A program made the position numbers and the translations under genes. Below, piece by piece: positions 7,938-13,937 of a DNA stretch of 64,000 bases. The number at the start of each line of letters is the position of its first letter. Positions within the stretch are counted from its first letter, which is position 1. The notes beneath the pieces were generated by a model that saw only the letters and a program-made list of their open reading frames with translations, made no database searches and was not told the DNA's origin. Source of the DNA: Chloroflexota bacterium (GTDB taxonomy: Bacteria; Chloroflexota; Dehalococcoidia; Lucifugimonadales; GCA-002723415); assembly GCA_002721445.1 (NCBI GenBank), contig PBKN01000005.1, positions 1 to 64,000 on the forward strand, in the 5' to 3' direction.

Positions 7938-9035
7938 ATGAAAAATGATTTAAAAAGAACAGCTCTCTATAATTCCCATATTAAACAAAATGCAAAAATG
8001 GTGGATTTTGGAGGCTGGTCTATGCCAATACAGTACAATAGCATTTTATCTGAATCTAAGTCTGTACGAACAAAGTCAGGTATTTTTGATGTTTCCCACA
8101 TGGGTAGAATAGAGATATCTGGTATTGACTCTTCTAAAATTTTAAACCAAATTCTTAGTGTAGATATCGAAAAAATAGAAATTGGAAAAGCCAAGTACAA
8201 CTTAATATGCAATAAAGAAGGTGGCATTATAGATGACTGTATAATCTATAAAACAAACAAACAAAACTTTTTATTAATCCCAAATGCTTCTAATTCTAAA
8301 GTGGTTTTAGAATGGATAGATTCATTTGTTTCAAATAATTCTAATATATTAATAAATGACATTACCTCTAACACAGTTATGATAGCTTACCAAGGACCAG
8401 ACTCAATTAAATTATTACAAAATATTACATTGTCAAATTTGGAACAAATAAAACCTTTTAACATACAAAATATTAATATAGATAAAATCAAGGTGTCTAT
8501 TGCCAGAACTGGTTATACAGGTGAAGATGGTTTTGAAATAATTGCTGATAAAAAAGATGGTCATAATTTATGGGAAAAATTAATTAGTATCGGCGCAACT
8601 CCTTGTGGCTTAGGAGCACGAGATATTTTAAGACTTGAAGCTAGCTTACCATTACATGGTAATGAAATTAACTTGTCAACAAATCCTTATGAAGCTAATT
8701 TAGGCAAATTTATTTATAGTGACAAAAATGGTTATATAGCAAAAAATGCCTTAGAGGCTATTGCAAATAAAGGACCTAAAAGGAAACTAGTGGGTTTAGA
8801 AGTTATGGATAGAATAATACCTAGAAAAGGACATGAAATTATTATCAACAATAAAATTATCGGTAATATAACAAGCGGAGGATATTCTTCAACATTGAAT
8901 AAGCCTATAGCACTCGGGTATGTACCTATAGAATTTTCTGATTTGAATACAAAAATCCAAATAAAAATTAGAGAAAAATTAGTAGAATCATATATATGTA
9001 AAATTCCGTTTTATAAAAGGAGGAAAGCCAAATGA
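7938..9035 (+). CDS. gcvT: Glycine cleavage system T protein (aminomethyltransferase)
   Basis: GcvT transfers the aminomethyl carbon from lipoylated H protein to tetrahydrofolate, giving methylene-THF and ammonia. The 365 residues begin with KRTALYNSHIKQNAKMVDFGGWSMPIQY, written here only in part as MVDFGGWSMPIQY. They include FDVSHMGR, ARTGYTGEDGFEI, CGLGARDILRLEA and the C-terminal barrel ending GYVPIEF. These are the normal motifs, including the folate-binding aspartate/arginine regions. The stop overlaps the gcvH start by four bases (ATGA). It is the first gene of gcvT-H-PA-PB. Confidence 0.96.
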   Translation: MKNDLKRTALYNSHIKQNAKMVDFGGWSMPIQYNSILSESKSVRTKSGIFDVSHMGRIEISGIDSSKILNQILSVDIEKIEIGKAKYNLICNKEGGIIDDCIIYKTNKQNFLLIPNASNSKVVLEWIDSFVSNNSNILINDITSNTVMIAYQGPDSIKLLQNITLSNLEQIKPFNIQNINIDKIKVSIARTGYTGEDGFEIIADKKDGHNLWEKLISIGATPCGLGARDILRLEASLPLHGNEINLSTNPYEANLGKFIYSDKNGYIAKNALEAIANKGPKRKLVGLEVMDRIIPRKGHEIIINNKIIGNITSGGYSSTLNKPIALGYVPIEFSDLNTKIQIKIREKLVESYICKIPFYKRRKAK

Positions 9036-9412
9036 ATCCAAAAGAACTAAAATACTCCAAAGACCATGAATGGGTAAAAACAGAAGGTAATGATTCTGCT
9101 TTGATTGGTATTACAGAATTTGCAACTGACAGTTTAGGGGATGTTGTATTTATAGAATTACCTGATATAGGTACTAAAATCACACAGTTTGAAAAAATTG
9201 GAGAAATAGAATCAGTAAAAGCCGTATCAGACATATTCACCCCAATAAGTGGAAAAATCATTGAACAAAACAATGAACTTATAAATAACCCAGAACTTAT
9301 TAACAATTCCCCATTTGAAGATGGCTGGATGTTTAAAGTGGAAAATATAAATACTGATGAACTTGACAACTTAATGAACTCTGATGAATATGATCAACTT
9401 ATAAAGGAATAA
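9032..9412 (+). CDS. gcvH: Glycine cleavage system H protein (lipoyl carrier)
   Basis: This is a 126-residue lipoyl carrier that shuttles the methylamine group between the P, T and L proteins. The modified lysine is K63 in the ESVKAVSD motif, within the standard GDVVFIELPDIG and FEKIGEIESVKA context. The start overlaps gcvT, and AGGAGGAAAG-like sequence just upstream gives a strong ribosome-binding site. Its lipoyl group can be made by the lipoyl synthase encoded at 35658-36548. Confidence 0.97.
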   Translation: MNPKELKYSKDHEWVKTEGNDSALIGITEFATDSLGDVVFIELPDIGTKITQFEKIGEIESVKAVSDIFTPISGKIIEQNNELINNPELINNSPFEDGWMFKVENINTDELDNLMNSDEYDQLIKE

Positions 9413-9417
9413 ATGAT

Positions 9418-10749
9418 TTGAATACTCATGAAGATTTAGGATACATTTCCCCATATATACCAAACACCGATTTAGATAGAAAAAATATGTTAAATAAAAT
9501 TGGTGTTAGCAGTATTGATGAATTATTTAAAGATATTCCAGATAAATATCGTAACCCTAATTTAAATTTAACAAAACCACTAAGCGAATTTGAATTAAAA
9601 AAATATATAGACGAAATATGCTCAATGAATATTGTCCCTGGCGATTATTCATGTTTCTTAGGAGGAGGATCTTATCAACACCACATACCTGCGATAGTAA
9701 ACCAATTAAGCACTCGCAGTGAGTATATGACATCGTATACTCCTTATCAACCTGAAGTTTCACAAGGTACTCTTCAAACTGAATATGAATTTCAATCTTT
9801 GTGCTGCTTATTAACAAATATGGAAGTAGCCAATGCTGGTATGTACGATGGATCAACTTCATTAGCAGAAGCAGCATTAATGTCAGCACGTATAAATAAG
9901 AAAAGTAAAATAGCTATATTAAATACTGTATCCCCTACATATATTGAAATTTTAAAAACATACACTCAATATCAAGGGCTTTCAATATATATGATAGAAG
10001 AAAATCAAACTAAATTGGAGGATGACACGACATGTCTTATTGTCCAAAATCCGAACTTCTATGGAAATATAGATGATATGAATAAATTTGCAGATATTGC
10101 CCATAAACATGAAGCACTCTTAGTTGCATATACAGATGCAATGTCATTAGGGATGTTTATTCCTCCTGGAGATTATGATGCAGATATAGCTGTTGCTGAA
10201 GGGCAAACTTTAGGAGTTCCAACTTCATTTGGAGGTCCTTATGTAGGAATTTTTACATGTAAAAAGAAGTATATTCGCCAAATGCCAGGTAGAATTGTTG
10301 GAGCAACAGAAGATACAAAAGGTAATACTGCTTATGTTCTAACTCTTCAAACACGTGAACAACATATACGTAGAGAAAATGCAACTTCTAATATATGTAC
10401 TTCAGTAGCACTAATTGCTCTGATGTCTACTATATATATGGCTAGTTTAGGAAAATCAGGTATTAAACATATAGCAGAACTATGTTATCAAAAAGCACAC
10501 TATGCTTCTAACTTGATTAATAAAATCCCAGGATATAGTTTATTATCTGACAAAGTATTTTTTAGGGAATTTGGAATAATATGCCCTAGACCACCAAAAG
10601 AAATTAATAAAATCCTTCTAGAGAAAAAAATTATCGGGGGACTAGATATTAGCGATAAAGTCGAAAATGGAATGTTAATATCAATAACCGAACTAAATTC
10701 AAAAGAAGAAATAGACCTCCTTGTATCAGCACTTTCGGAAATAAAATAG
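9418..10749 (+). CDS. gcvPA: Glycine dehydrogenase (decarboxylating) subunit 1
   Basis: This is the N-terminal half of the split P protein, 443 residues, which with GcvPB forms the PLP-dependent glycine decarboxylase. Motifs include SCFLGGGSYQHHIPA, TSYTPYQPEVSQGTLQTEYEFQ, NAGMYDGSTSLAEA and PTSFGGPYVGIF, with RREKATSNICT-like RRENATSNICT. Translation starts at a TTG (9418) placed eight bases after AAGGA. The nearby ATG at 9413 runs straight into a stop (ATG ATT TGA), so TTG is the real start. The gap to gcvH is five bases. Confidence 0.96.
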   Translation: MNTHEDLGYISPYIPNTDLDRKNMLNKIGVSSIDELFKDIPDKYRNPNLNLTKPLSEFELKKYIDEICSMNIVPGDYSCFLGGGSYQHHIPAIVNQLSTRSEYMTSYTPYQPEVSQGTLQTEYEFQSLCCLLTNMEVANAGMYDGSTSLAEAALMSARINKKSKIAILNTVSPTYIEILKTYTQYQGLSIYMIEENQTKLEDDTTCLIVQNPNFYGNIDDMNKFADIAHKHEALLVAYTDAMSLGMFIPPGDYDADIAVAEGQTLGVPTSFGGPYVGIFTCKKKYIRQMPGRIVGATEDTKGNTAYVLTLQTREQHIRRENATSNICTSVALIALMSTIYMASLGKSGIKHIAELCYQKAHYASNLINKIPGYSLLSDKVFFREFGIICPRPPKEINKILLEKKIIGGLDISDKVENGMLISITELNSKEEIDLLVSALSEIK

Positions 10750-10761
10750 AAAGATATTTAT

Positions 10762-12237
10762 ATGAATACAAAAATTAATGATATCAATAGAAAATTATTA
10801 ATGGACAGAAGCTCTCCTGGTAGAGTTGGAGCAACATTACCTCCATCAGATGTACCAAAGCAAAAATTACCTCCAGATAAATACCTTAGAGAAAATATTA
10901 ACCTTCCTGAATTAAGTGAAAGTGAATTAGTAAGATATTTTTCAAAATTAAGCCAATTTAATTTTTCAATTGACCATAATTTTTATCCATTAGGCAGTTG
11001 CACAATGAAATACAACCCAAAAATCAATGATGAAATCGCATCAATTAAAGGACTATCAAATTTACACCCATTACAAGATGAATCTACAGTTCAAGGTGCT
11101 TTAAAATTAATGTTCGAATTGCAAAATTCACTCTGCGAAATAACTGGAATGGATGATATATCATTAGCTCCAATGGCAGGTGCGGACGGTGAACTTGCGG
11201 GTATGTTAATGACTAAAGCATACCATTTGGCTAATGAAGAGCCTCAAAGAAAAAAAATCTTAATACCAGACAGTGCCCATGGGACAAACCCTGCATCAGC
11301 TGCAATGGCCGGATTTGAAGTAATAACCTTGCCATCAGATCATAATGGAAATGCTGATATAGAAGCACTAAAATCATCCGTAGATGAAACATTAGCAGGA
11401 TTAATGATTACTTTACCAAGTACTCTCGGTTTATTTGATACAAACATTTTAGATGTATGTAGAATAGTTCACAATGCAGGTGGGATAGTATATGGAGATG
11501 GAGCAAATCTAAATTCTCTATTAGGTAGAGTTAAATTAGGTGAATTAGGATTTGACATTATACACTCTAATTTACATAAAACTTTTACTCAACCTCATGG
11601 CGGAGGTGGCCCTGGCGCAGGTCCTGTAATCATCAAAGATTTTTTATCTGATTACCTCCCATCTCCAGTTGTAAGACTAAATCAAAAAGACAATTCATAT
11701 TCATTGTATTCTCCTAAAAATACTGTTGGAAAAATGGGAGCGTTTCATGGTAATTTTGGAGCTTTAGTTAGAGCTTATTCATATATAAAAACTTTAGGAG
11801 AACCTGGTATTAATCAAATTAGCCAAAATGCAGTAATAAACGCAAATTACATACGTAGCCAATTAAAAGATTATTACGATTTACCTTTCAATAGAACCTG
11901 TATGCATGAAGTAGTATTTTCAGCAAAGAATTATAAACAAGAATACGGTATAAGCGCTCTTGATATTGCAAAAAGGTTAATCGATTATGGAATACATCCG
12001 CCCACAATGTACTTCCCCTTAATAGTTGATGAAGCTTTATTAATAGAGCCAACTGAAACAGAATCTAAAGATACTCTTGATTATTTTATTGAAGTAATGA
12101 AAGTAATTAGTAAAGAAGCAAAAGACAATCCTGAATTACTTCGTAATGCACCTCACAATACTACTAACAGTAGAGTAGATGAAGCTAAAGCTGCTCGAAA
12201 TCCTAATTTAAGATGGTCGCCAATAAATAATACCTAA
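10762..12237 (+). CDS. gcvPB: Glycine dehydrogenase (decarboxylating) subunit 2
   Basis: This is the C-terminal half of the split P protein, 491 residues, carrying the PLP site. The aldimine lysine is K273 in HSNLHKTFTQPHGGGGPG. FYPLGSCTMKYNP near residue 75 and DSAHGTNPASAAM at 170-182 are also diagnostic. It follows gcvPA by 12 bases and is followed after 15 bases by the UGA-containing peroxiredoxin gene. This closes a complete T-H-PA-PB operon; the L protein (dihydrolipoyl dehydrogenase) is not in the window. Confidence 0.97.
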   Translation: MNTKINDINRKLLMDRSSPGRVGATLPPSDVPKQKLPPDKYLRENINLPELSESELVRYFSKLSQFNFSIDHNFYPLGSCTMKYNPKINDEIASIKGLSNLHPLQDESTVQGALKLMFELQNSLCEITGMDDISLAPMAGADGELAGMLMTKAYHLANEEPQRKKILIPDSAHGTNPASAAMAGFEVITLPSDHNGNADIEALKSSVDETLAGLMITLPSTLGLFDTNILDVCRIVHNAGGIVYGDGANLNSLLGRVKLGELGFDIIHSNLHKTFTQPHGGGGPGAGPVIIKDFLSDYLPSPVVRLNQKDNSYSLYSPKNTVGKMGAFHGNFGALVRAYSYIKTLGEPGINQISQNAVINANYIRSQLKDYYDLPFNRTCMHEVVFSAKNYKQEYGISALDIAKRLIDYGIHPPTMYFPLIVDEALLIEPTETESKDTLDYFIEVMKVISKEAKDNPELLRNAPHNTTNSRVDEAKAARNPNLRWSPINNT

Positions 12238-12252
12238 GTATAAAGGAATTTA

Positions 12253-12720
12253 ATGATGGTAAATATAGGAGATGTAGCACCTAATTTTACTTTAAATTCT
12301 CATCAGGATGAAAAAATATCGCTAAGTAAATATATAGGTGTAAAAAATATAATCCTTTCTTTTTATGTATATTCATTTACTGAAGGATGAGCCTTTCAAA
12401 TTTCTAAATTCAGACAAAGAATGCCTGAATTACAAGAAATAAACACCCAAGTTTTGGGTATAAGTACAGACCCTTCTCCATCTCAAAAAGCTTTTTCTAT
12501 GTCTTTAGGAAATATTTCATATCCATTATTATCAGATTTTCATCCTAAGGGTAAAATTTCAAAACTATATAAAGTATTTAATAATAATAAAGGGACTTCC
12601 AAAAGAGCCATAATAATAATCAATAAAAATGGAATTATAAAGTTTAAAAAAATTTATTTAGATGTATCCGAATTAGATATGGAGCAAATATTTACAGAAT
12701 TATCTAAATTAAAAAATTAA
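12253..12720 (+). CDS. AhpE-like peroxiredoxin, probable selenoprotein (UGA = Sec46)
   Basis: Reading from the ATG at 12253 (AGGA five bases upstream), the frame is a complete 155-residue peroxiredoxin if the TGA at 12388-12390 is read through. Before the TGA it encodes VGDVAPNF-like IGDVAPNFTLNS and then FYVYSFTEG. After it come AFQISKFRQRMPEL, VLGISTDPSPSQKAF, YPLLSDFHPKG and KRAIIIINKNG, which are ordinary AhpE/Bcp-family blocks. The TGA falls exactly at the peroxidatic cysteine (T-x-x-C motif), and no other cysteine exists in the protein, so selenocysteine would be its only catalytic residue. The arginine in KRAII matches the conserved active-site Arg; the usual motif Pro is Val. A hairpin sits at 12407-12431. 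Sec-containing peroxiredoxins are known in marine bacteria. Gene finders will report only the 12421-12720 fragment. The alternative, a pseudogene with a stop, is much less likely because both halves are conserved in frame. Confidence 0.85.
12407..12431 (+). promoter_or_regulatory. Candidate bacterial SECIS hairpin
   Basis: AATTCAG (12407-12413) pairs perfectly with CTGAATT (12425-12431) around an 11-base loop. The loop begins 24 bases after the UGA at 12388-12390. That is inside the 16-37 base range described for bacterial SECIS elements. If the closing G-C pair opens, the loop starts with the G that the consensus expects. The hairpin lies inside the coding sequence, as bacterial SECIS elements do. 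Confidence 0.5.
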
Positions 12721-13937
12721 ATAAAATAAGATTCAAAATTTTTAATATCTAATTGATGTGAATATCTGCTGTCAGCTAAATCCAAATAATTCGAATTTAA
12801 TATTGGAGATTTGAAATTTATCTCATTATAATCGAAATTAAATAAATCTTTCGAATCAACAATATTTGTATTCATTTCTTGTAATACCACTTTAAAACCT
12901 CCTAATCCCTGAGGTTTTACTAATTCCATAATTGCTATACGATTTTTATAATATTCATATTGTGATAAATCAGATTTAGATAAATCATATAAAATTTTTT
13001 TAATACCTAAATTATTTAAGTATGTACTTTGCAACATATAGGATAAAGTTTTCAAACCATATAAATTCCCACTCTCAATTATAGAAGTAAAATCTACATG
13101 AGCAGTAATATCTTGCTTACCAATTTTAGTAAAAAGATTATTTGAATTTATATGTTGATAATATGTCTGTAGTGTACCTCGAGACCTAAATTGAGAATAT
13201 AATTCTGACCTAATATCTCCGTAGTCGATTGTCAAAACAAAGCCTTTCAAAAGTGATTTAGATATAGTTCTAATCCAATCTTCAATTTTTAAATTAACTT
13301 CTCCTTCGAATCCATCTGGTAAATAATTAACATAAGGCTCAATTTGTTTGATAATAGCATCACTGCTAGCTTCATCAATCACCTCTTTAATTTCACCTCT
13401 GTTATCAATGCTTACATATATTTCATAAATTTTCTTATCTAATATTTTAAATCTATGTACTGGGAAAGAATCGACAAGTTCATTAGAAATAAAGCATCCA
13501 ACAATATTTTTTAAAGGTATAGAATTTGTCAAAATATGCTCGATTGATTCATAATCTTCTGTGAATTTTGAATCACTAACATATCTATCTAAAGATAAAT
13601 ATCTAAATGACATAGCAAAATCATTACAAATAATATTCGCAAATTTAGATATTTCATGTCCAAGATGACCAGTTCCTGAACCCATTTCAATAACCCAAAA
13701 TTCATCTGGAGAACCTAAAATTTTCCACATCTGCCTAAATTGAATAGTAAGCAAGTAAGCAAATGATGGATGTAATACTGAACTAGTAAAGTAATCCCCT
13801 TGGCTGGATATATTATTCGAACTATTATAATAACCTTTTGGATGATACAAAGCAGTTTCCATAAAATCTGCAAACGTTATTTTTGAATAAATTCTTATTT
13901 TATTCAGTATATCTAATTCAGGAGATTCAATAATCAA
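12717..13937 (-). CDS. MidA-family SAM-dependent methyltransferase
   Basis: The 406-residue protein belongs to the MidA/NDUFAF7 family of class I methyltransferases. It has FADFMETALYHPKGYY near the N terminus, GDYFTSSVLHPSFAYLL, and a SAM-binding glycine motif VIEMGSGTGHLGHEI, followed by LVDSFPVHRF-like sequence and LTIDYGD. In mitochondria the family methylates an arginine of a complex I subunit; bacterial targets are unproven. The 3' end overlaps the peroxiredoxin gene tail-to-tail by four bases, so there is no room for separate terminators. Confidence 0.85.
   Translation of the reverse strand: MIIESPELDILNKIRIYSKITFADFMETALYHPKGYYNSSNNISSQGDYFTSSVLHPSFAYLLTIQFRQMWKILGSPDEFWVIEMGSGTGHLGHEISKFANIICNDFAMSFRYLSLDRYVSDSKFTEDYESIEHILTNSIPLKNIVGCFISNELVDSFPVHRFKILDKKIYEIYVSIDNRGEIKEVIDEASSDAIIKQIEPYVNYLPDGFEGEVNLKIEDWIRTISKSLLKGFVLTIDYGDIRSELYSQFRSRGTLQTYYQHINSNNLFTKIGKQDITAHVDFTSIIESGNLYGLKTLSYMLQSTYLNNLGIKKILYDLSKSDLSQYEYYKNRIAIMELVKPQGLGGFKVVLQEMNTNIVDSKDLFNFDYNEINFKSPILNSNYLDLADSRYSHQLDIKNFESYFI

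Follow-up and report, generated by a model that had tools for sequence, protein, structure and literature searches.

A peroxiredoxin gene on the forward strand of the window—the whole 64,000-nucleotide stretch of DNA analyzed here—carries an in-frame UGA where a catalytic cysteine would be expected, and the question is whether this codon is read as selenocysteine (Sec), stops translation, or reflects a decayed or misread gene. Comparison with related genes and genomes makes it highly probable, in our judgment, that the gene encodes a Sec-containing, AhpE-like peroxiredoxin of the 1-Cys type, with UGA codon 46 read as Sec via SelB, tRNA-Sec, and a downstream hairpin.

The reading frame and the active site

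The gene (12253 to 12720, + strand) spans 155 codons, of which codon 46 is the Sec codon. As the initial annotation had claimed, read-through translation yields a complete frame from 12253 to 12720 broken by the TGA at 12388 to 12390 (+) alone, and the 155-residue product contains no other cysteine. Relatives begin at the second methionine, which makes the ATG at 12256 a likelier start than 12253, a small correction to the earlier assignment; a probable ribosome-binding site, AAGGA (12243 to 12247, +), lies 5 nt before 12253 and 8 nt before 12256. Translation table 11 lists only the fragment from 12421 to 12720 (99 aa), the outcome that had been foreseen for standard annotation, and the SAR202 peroxiredoxin is thus easily missed, its gene truncated and its active site lost. 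General reassignment of UGA was considered and rejected: when the window was scanned for genes that stay open across a single TGA, this peroxiredoxin was the sole convincing case, and the remaining window genes are normal under table 11.

The read-through product matches the Pfam AhpC-TSA family (PF00578) with 104 bits (cut-off, 26), and its closest solved proteins by sequence are the Mycobacterium tuberculosis AhpE entries (E 6e-27). In the homologue alignments the UGA falls on the catalytic cysteine of FTGIC in M. tuberculosis AhpE, which bears out its assignment to the peroxidatic position. An AlphaFold2 model of the protein (pLDDT 94.9) leads to the same neighbors, with M. tuberculosis AhpE entries as the top Foldseek matches (TM about 0.93). 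Across the alignment of relatives, the columns of Thr43, residue 46 (Cys or Sec), and Arg118 are invariant, and the proline of the PxxxTxxC motif is absent: the window gene has V39, and the position is mostly I, V, or L across the SAR202-type clade, Cys members included. The missing proline weakens the claim to a canonical peroxiredoxin, not the claim to a peroxiredoxin-like way of working, and the protein, judged by its sequence and predicted fold, is AhpE-like with one defining motif position changed. With AhpE of M. tuberculosis (Rv2238c), a 1-Cys peroxiredoxin, it shares the catalytic column, the threonine, and the lack of a second cysteine; it differs in having Sec for Cys and V39 for the motif proline.

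The predicted cycle would run as follows: SelB and tRNA-Sec, together with the hairpin just 3′ of the UGA, would insert Sec at codon 46; the selenolate, positioned by Thr43 and Arg118, would attack the peroxide; and the oxidized selenium site would be recycled by an external thiol system. The alternative that survives best accepts the selenoprotein and disputes the chemistry, taking the lost motif proline and the absence of a second cysteine as marks of an AhpC/TSA-superfamily protein that is not chiefly a peroxidase and catalyzes another selenol reaction. The replacement of the proline throughout the clade, even in members with cysteine, fits this reading, but the invariant Thr43, Cys/Sec, and Arg118 columns and the standing of AhpE as nearest solved protein by both sequence and fold argue for a peroxidase, and we regard the alternative as unlikely.

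Conservation of the UGA and the selenocysteine machinery

The source genome (1.71 Mb, 99% complete) is that of a marine bacterium of SAR202, within the Dehalococcoidia; SAR202 is an abundant deep-ocean group. Of the 197 genomes searched in the order, 195 have matches to the peroxiredoxin, and the strong matches almost all contain a single TGA. This TGA occupies the same column in 29 of the 30 strongest loci, window included, the remaining one having TGC; over 110 loci, a set that repeats some genomes, the codon at the catalytic column is TGA in 89, TGC in 14, and TGT in 7. The window gene therefore shares its UGA at the catalytic column with dozens of related genes, and the named genomes of these relatives fall in SAR202/Dehalococcoidia. 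One paralogue with an apparent TAA (L025) was set aside: it is a PrxQ/Bcp-type gene of the ordinary Cys kind, and its match had run on beyond the gene's own stop. Relatives were also sought with an alignment query of genome contigs, a single-protein query having given no matches; a family-level genome search returned the window's own genome alone, and phage matches were partial only, at <60% identity.

The initial annotation had proposed looking for selA, selB, selC, and selD in the genome, and all four are present. A single contig carries selA (524 bits), selD (359 bits, with an in-frame TGA of its own), and tRNA-Sec (selC; above the gathering score, anticodon UCA), and selB lies in the same genome. 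Within the order, selA exceeds the cut-off in 170 of 197 genomes. Two smaller observations concern this machinery: selD (L019:1471-2532) encodes a selenoprotein in its own right (SGGUASKY), an arrangement already known, and a thioredoxin-like gene (L007:1609-1932) adjoins the tRNA-Sec gene.

Against this background, a pseudogene, or a base error at a codon whose true or ancestral form is TGC or TGT, is very improbable. TGA is one base away from a Cys codon and the window gene is long-branched, as such a history would have it, but TGA recurs in the same column across many families and independent assemblies, the frame is open on both sides, and the genome holds the complete Sec machinery. Random stops elsewhere in the gene, named beforehand as a sign that would count against Sec, are not seen in relatives; the same-column TGA in relatives from other families speaks against a base error at 12388 to 12390. 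Just as improbable is a true stop at the UGA followed by a functional, N-terminally truncated protein from the ATG at 12421: the table 11 ORF does begin there, but all relatives examined conserve the protein sequence that precedes it, and the shortened protein would have neither the catalytic residue nor the opening strands and helix of the fold. Returning to the Sec reading, the gene sequences indicate that nearly the whole order almost certainly makes a selenium peroxiredoxin like that of the window bacterium; if true, an order-wide selenoenzyme for peroxide defense would help make SAR202 bacteria selenium-dependent.

Pairing constraint downstream of the UGA

The initial annotation had placed a bacterial SECIS after the UGA. 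Folding and fixed-register pairing on the + strand give a two-part hairpin, with an outer stem formed by 12400 to 12405 and 12435 to 12440, an inner stem formed by 12407 to 12413 and 12425 to 12431, and an apical region (12414 to 12424) in which folding allows two further possible pairs. Its folding energy (−9.2 to −9.9 kcal/mol) is modestly better than chance against dinucleotide shuffles (z −1.97), and 17.5% of synonymous shuffles fold equally well, so that the window hairpin is not significant alone. A strict model of the bacterial SECIS calls for a spacing of 16 to 37 nt, a minimum free energy of at most −7.5, and a G among the first two loop nucleotides (PMC13188914); the spacing and energy of the window hairpin lie within this model, but in its best fold neither of these two nucleotides is a G. 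The weight of the window hairpin comes instead from its relatives, which share its register: locus L028 has the same two-part hairpin as the window in the same register.

RNAalifold returned no consensus structure for a 34-sequence alignment, and we therefore held the register fixed and compared pairing with that in synonymous shuffles. Because covariation at third codon positions (C-G versus U-A) may reflect genome GC, plain shuffle counts were not relied on; the synonymous shuffles use each gene's own codons and thereby control for this confound. In 36 SAR202-type Sec genes we found 11.9 pairs per gene against 9.2 expected (z 9.5; 0 of 600 shuffles), and 22 other Sec genes also showed an excess (z 5.4), although kinship of the sequences within a clade means that these z values overstate independence. 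Cys genes showed no pairing excess, neither the 5 from SAR202 (z −0.5) nor 15 others (z −0.3). Folding energy against synonymous shuffles follows the same division, with mean z values of −2.05 and −2.44 for Sec genes versus −0.03 for Cys genes, and control stretches gave −0.5 and −0.3. Likewise, 69% of cells are paired in the fixed register, compared to 41 to 50% when the register is slid. The hairpin exists, and the pairing signal appears in genes with Sec and not in those with Cys, which supports the SECIS claim comparatively; these data support selection on the hairpin in the Sec gene family.

Gene order, the cysteine genus, and known selenoperoxiredoxins

The peroxiredoxin gene was said to follow the glycine cleavage operon directly, and it does: gcvT, gcvH, gcvPA, and gcvPB (7938 to 12237, +; names from the initial annotation and the ORF sequences, with synteny) end 15 nt upstream. 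Among 12 families sampled, gcvPB lies directly upstream in 9, the Cys genus included, and the gap is estimated at 19 to 189 bases; it was not seen in this place in f34, f33, and f20, and f34 is the best-sampled family. From this gene order, co-transcription with gcv and a link to glycine oxidation are plausible. On the other side, a convergent PF02636 methyltransferase gene (window 12717 to 13937) runs into the last bases of ahpE; many relatives have a TrmI-like methyltransferase gene, missing in the window, after the peroxiredoxin and before the PF02636 gene.

One genus (f24) has TGC or TGT in place of TGA. It nests within the Sec clade of the tree on a long branch, a type of placement that is uncertain and that also applies to the window row, which is long-branched and of unusual composition. 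Of the five f24 genomes listed without the stop, four keep selA, and the Cys genes of this genus carry no SECIS pairing signal. The simplest reading is a reversal from Sec to Cys. At the Cys-genus loci L047, L081, L083, L085, L090, and L091, the residues SS and EE, whose codons form the outer SECIS stem where the gene has Sec, have also drifted. With selA mostly kept and no SECIS pairing, this genus offers a natural experiment on the benefit of Sec in a peroxiredoxin and on the limits that the RNA signal sets to the protein sequence. Taken further, the SAR202-type clade might be a peroxiredoxin type of its own: selenium chemistry relaxed the otherwise conserved PxxxTxxC active site, the conserved gcv-ahpE order ties the enzyme to glycine oxidation, and one genus went from Sec to Cys with loss of the SECIS; we offer this as a tentative proposal that may well prove wrong.

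Sec peroxiredoxins as such are already known, and what is less expected here is the missing motif proline and the gcv gene order. Prx figures among the known selenoproteins in a 2026 review, which describes its PxxxTxxU motif as highly conserved (PMC13188914). In two metagenomic reports, TxxU Sec peroxiredoxins are the second most abundant known selenoprotein family of the Sargasso Sea set (43 sequences; PMC1088965) and number 253 sequences in the GOS data (PMC2398784). These marine proteins (PF00578/COG1225) share with ours the AhpC/TSA family, the TxxU motif, marine origin, and a bacterial SECIS; the relevant passages of the two reports give no SAR202 assignment, and the sets may well contain SAR202 genes. 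A search of the open-access literature, with subscription papers outside its scope, found no paper mentioning both SAR202 and selenoprotein, and of the three papers that mention AhpE, selenocysteine, and selenoprotein together none was, by title, on such a gene.

Two further groups can be compared. PrxU (selenocysteine peroxiredoxin, NF040737) belongs to the same superfamily but is distant, our protein scoring 65.5 bits against a family cut-off of 270. The Sec peroxiredoxins of Bacillales, Anaerolineales, and Acidobacteriota (PLDWTPVU type) are AhpE-like and share the TGA column and a SECIS pairing signal, but they keep the motif proline and lie on the opposite side of the tree from the SAR202 type. 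Proline-keeping AhpE-like Sec peroxiredoxins (PLDWTPVU and similar; L095-L103, L105-L109, and others) occur in these three groups and in Nitrospirota, Eremiobacterota, and SAR324. At one locus (L092; 3398-3865 and 4001-4459), the proline-less Sec copy has as its neighbor a canonical Cys AhpE that retains the motif proline (FFPGAFTGVC).
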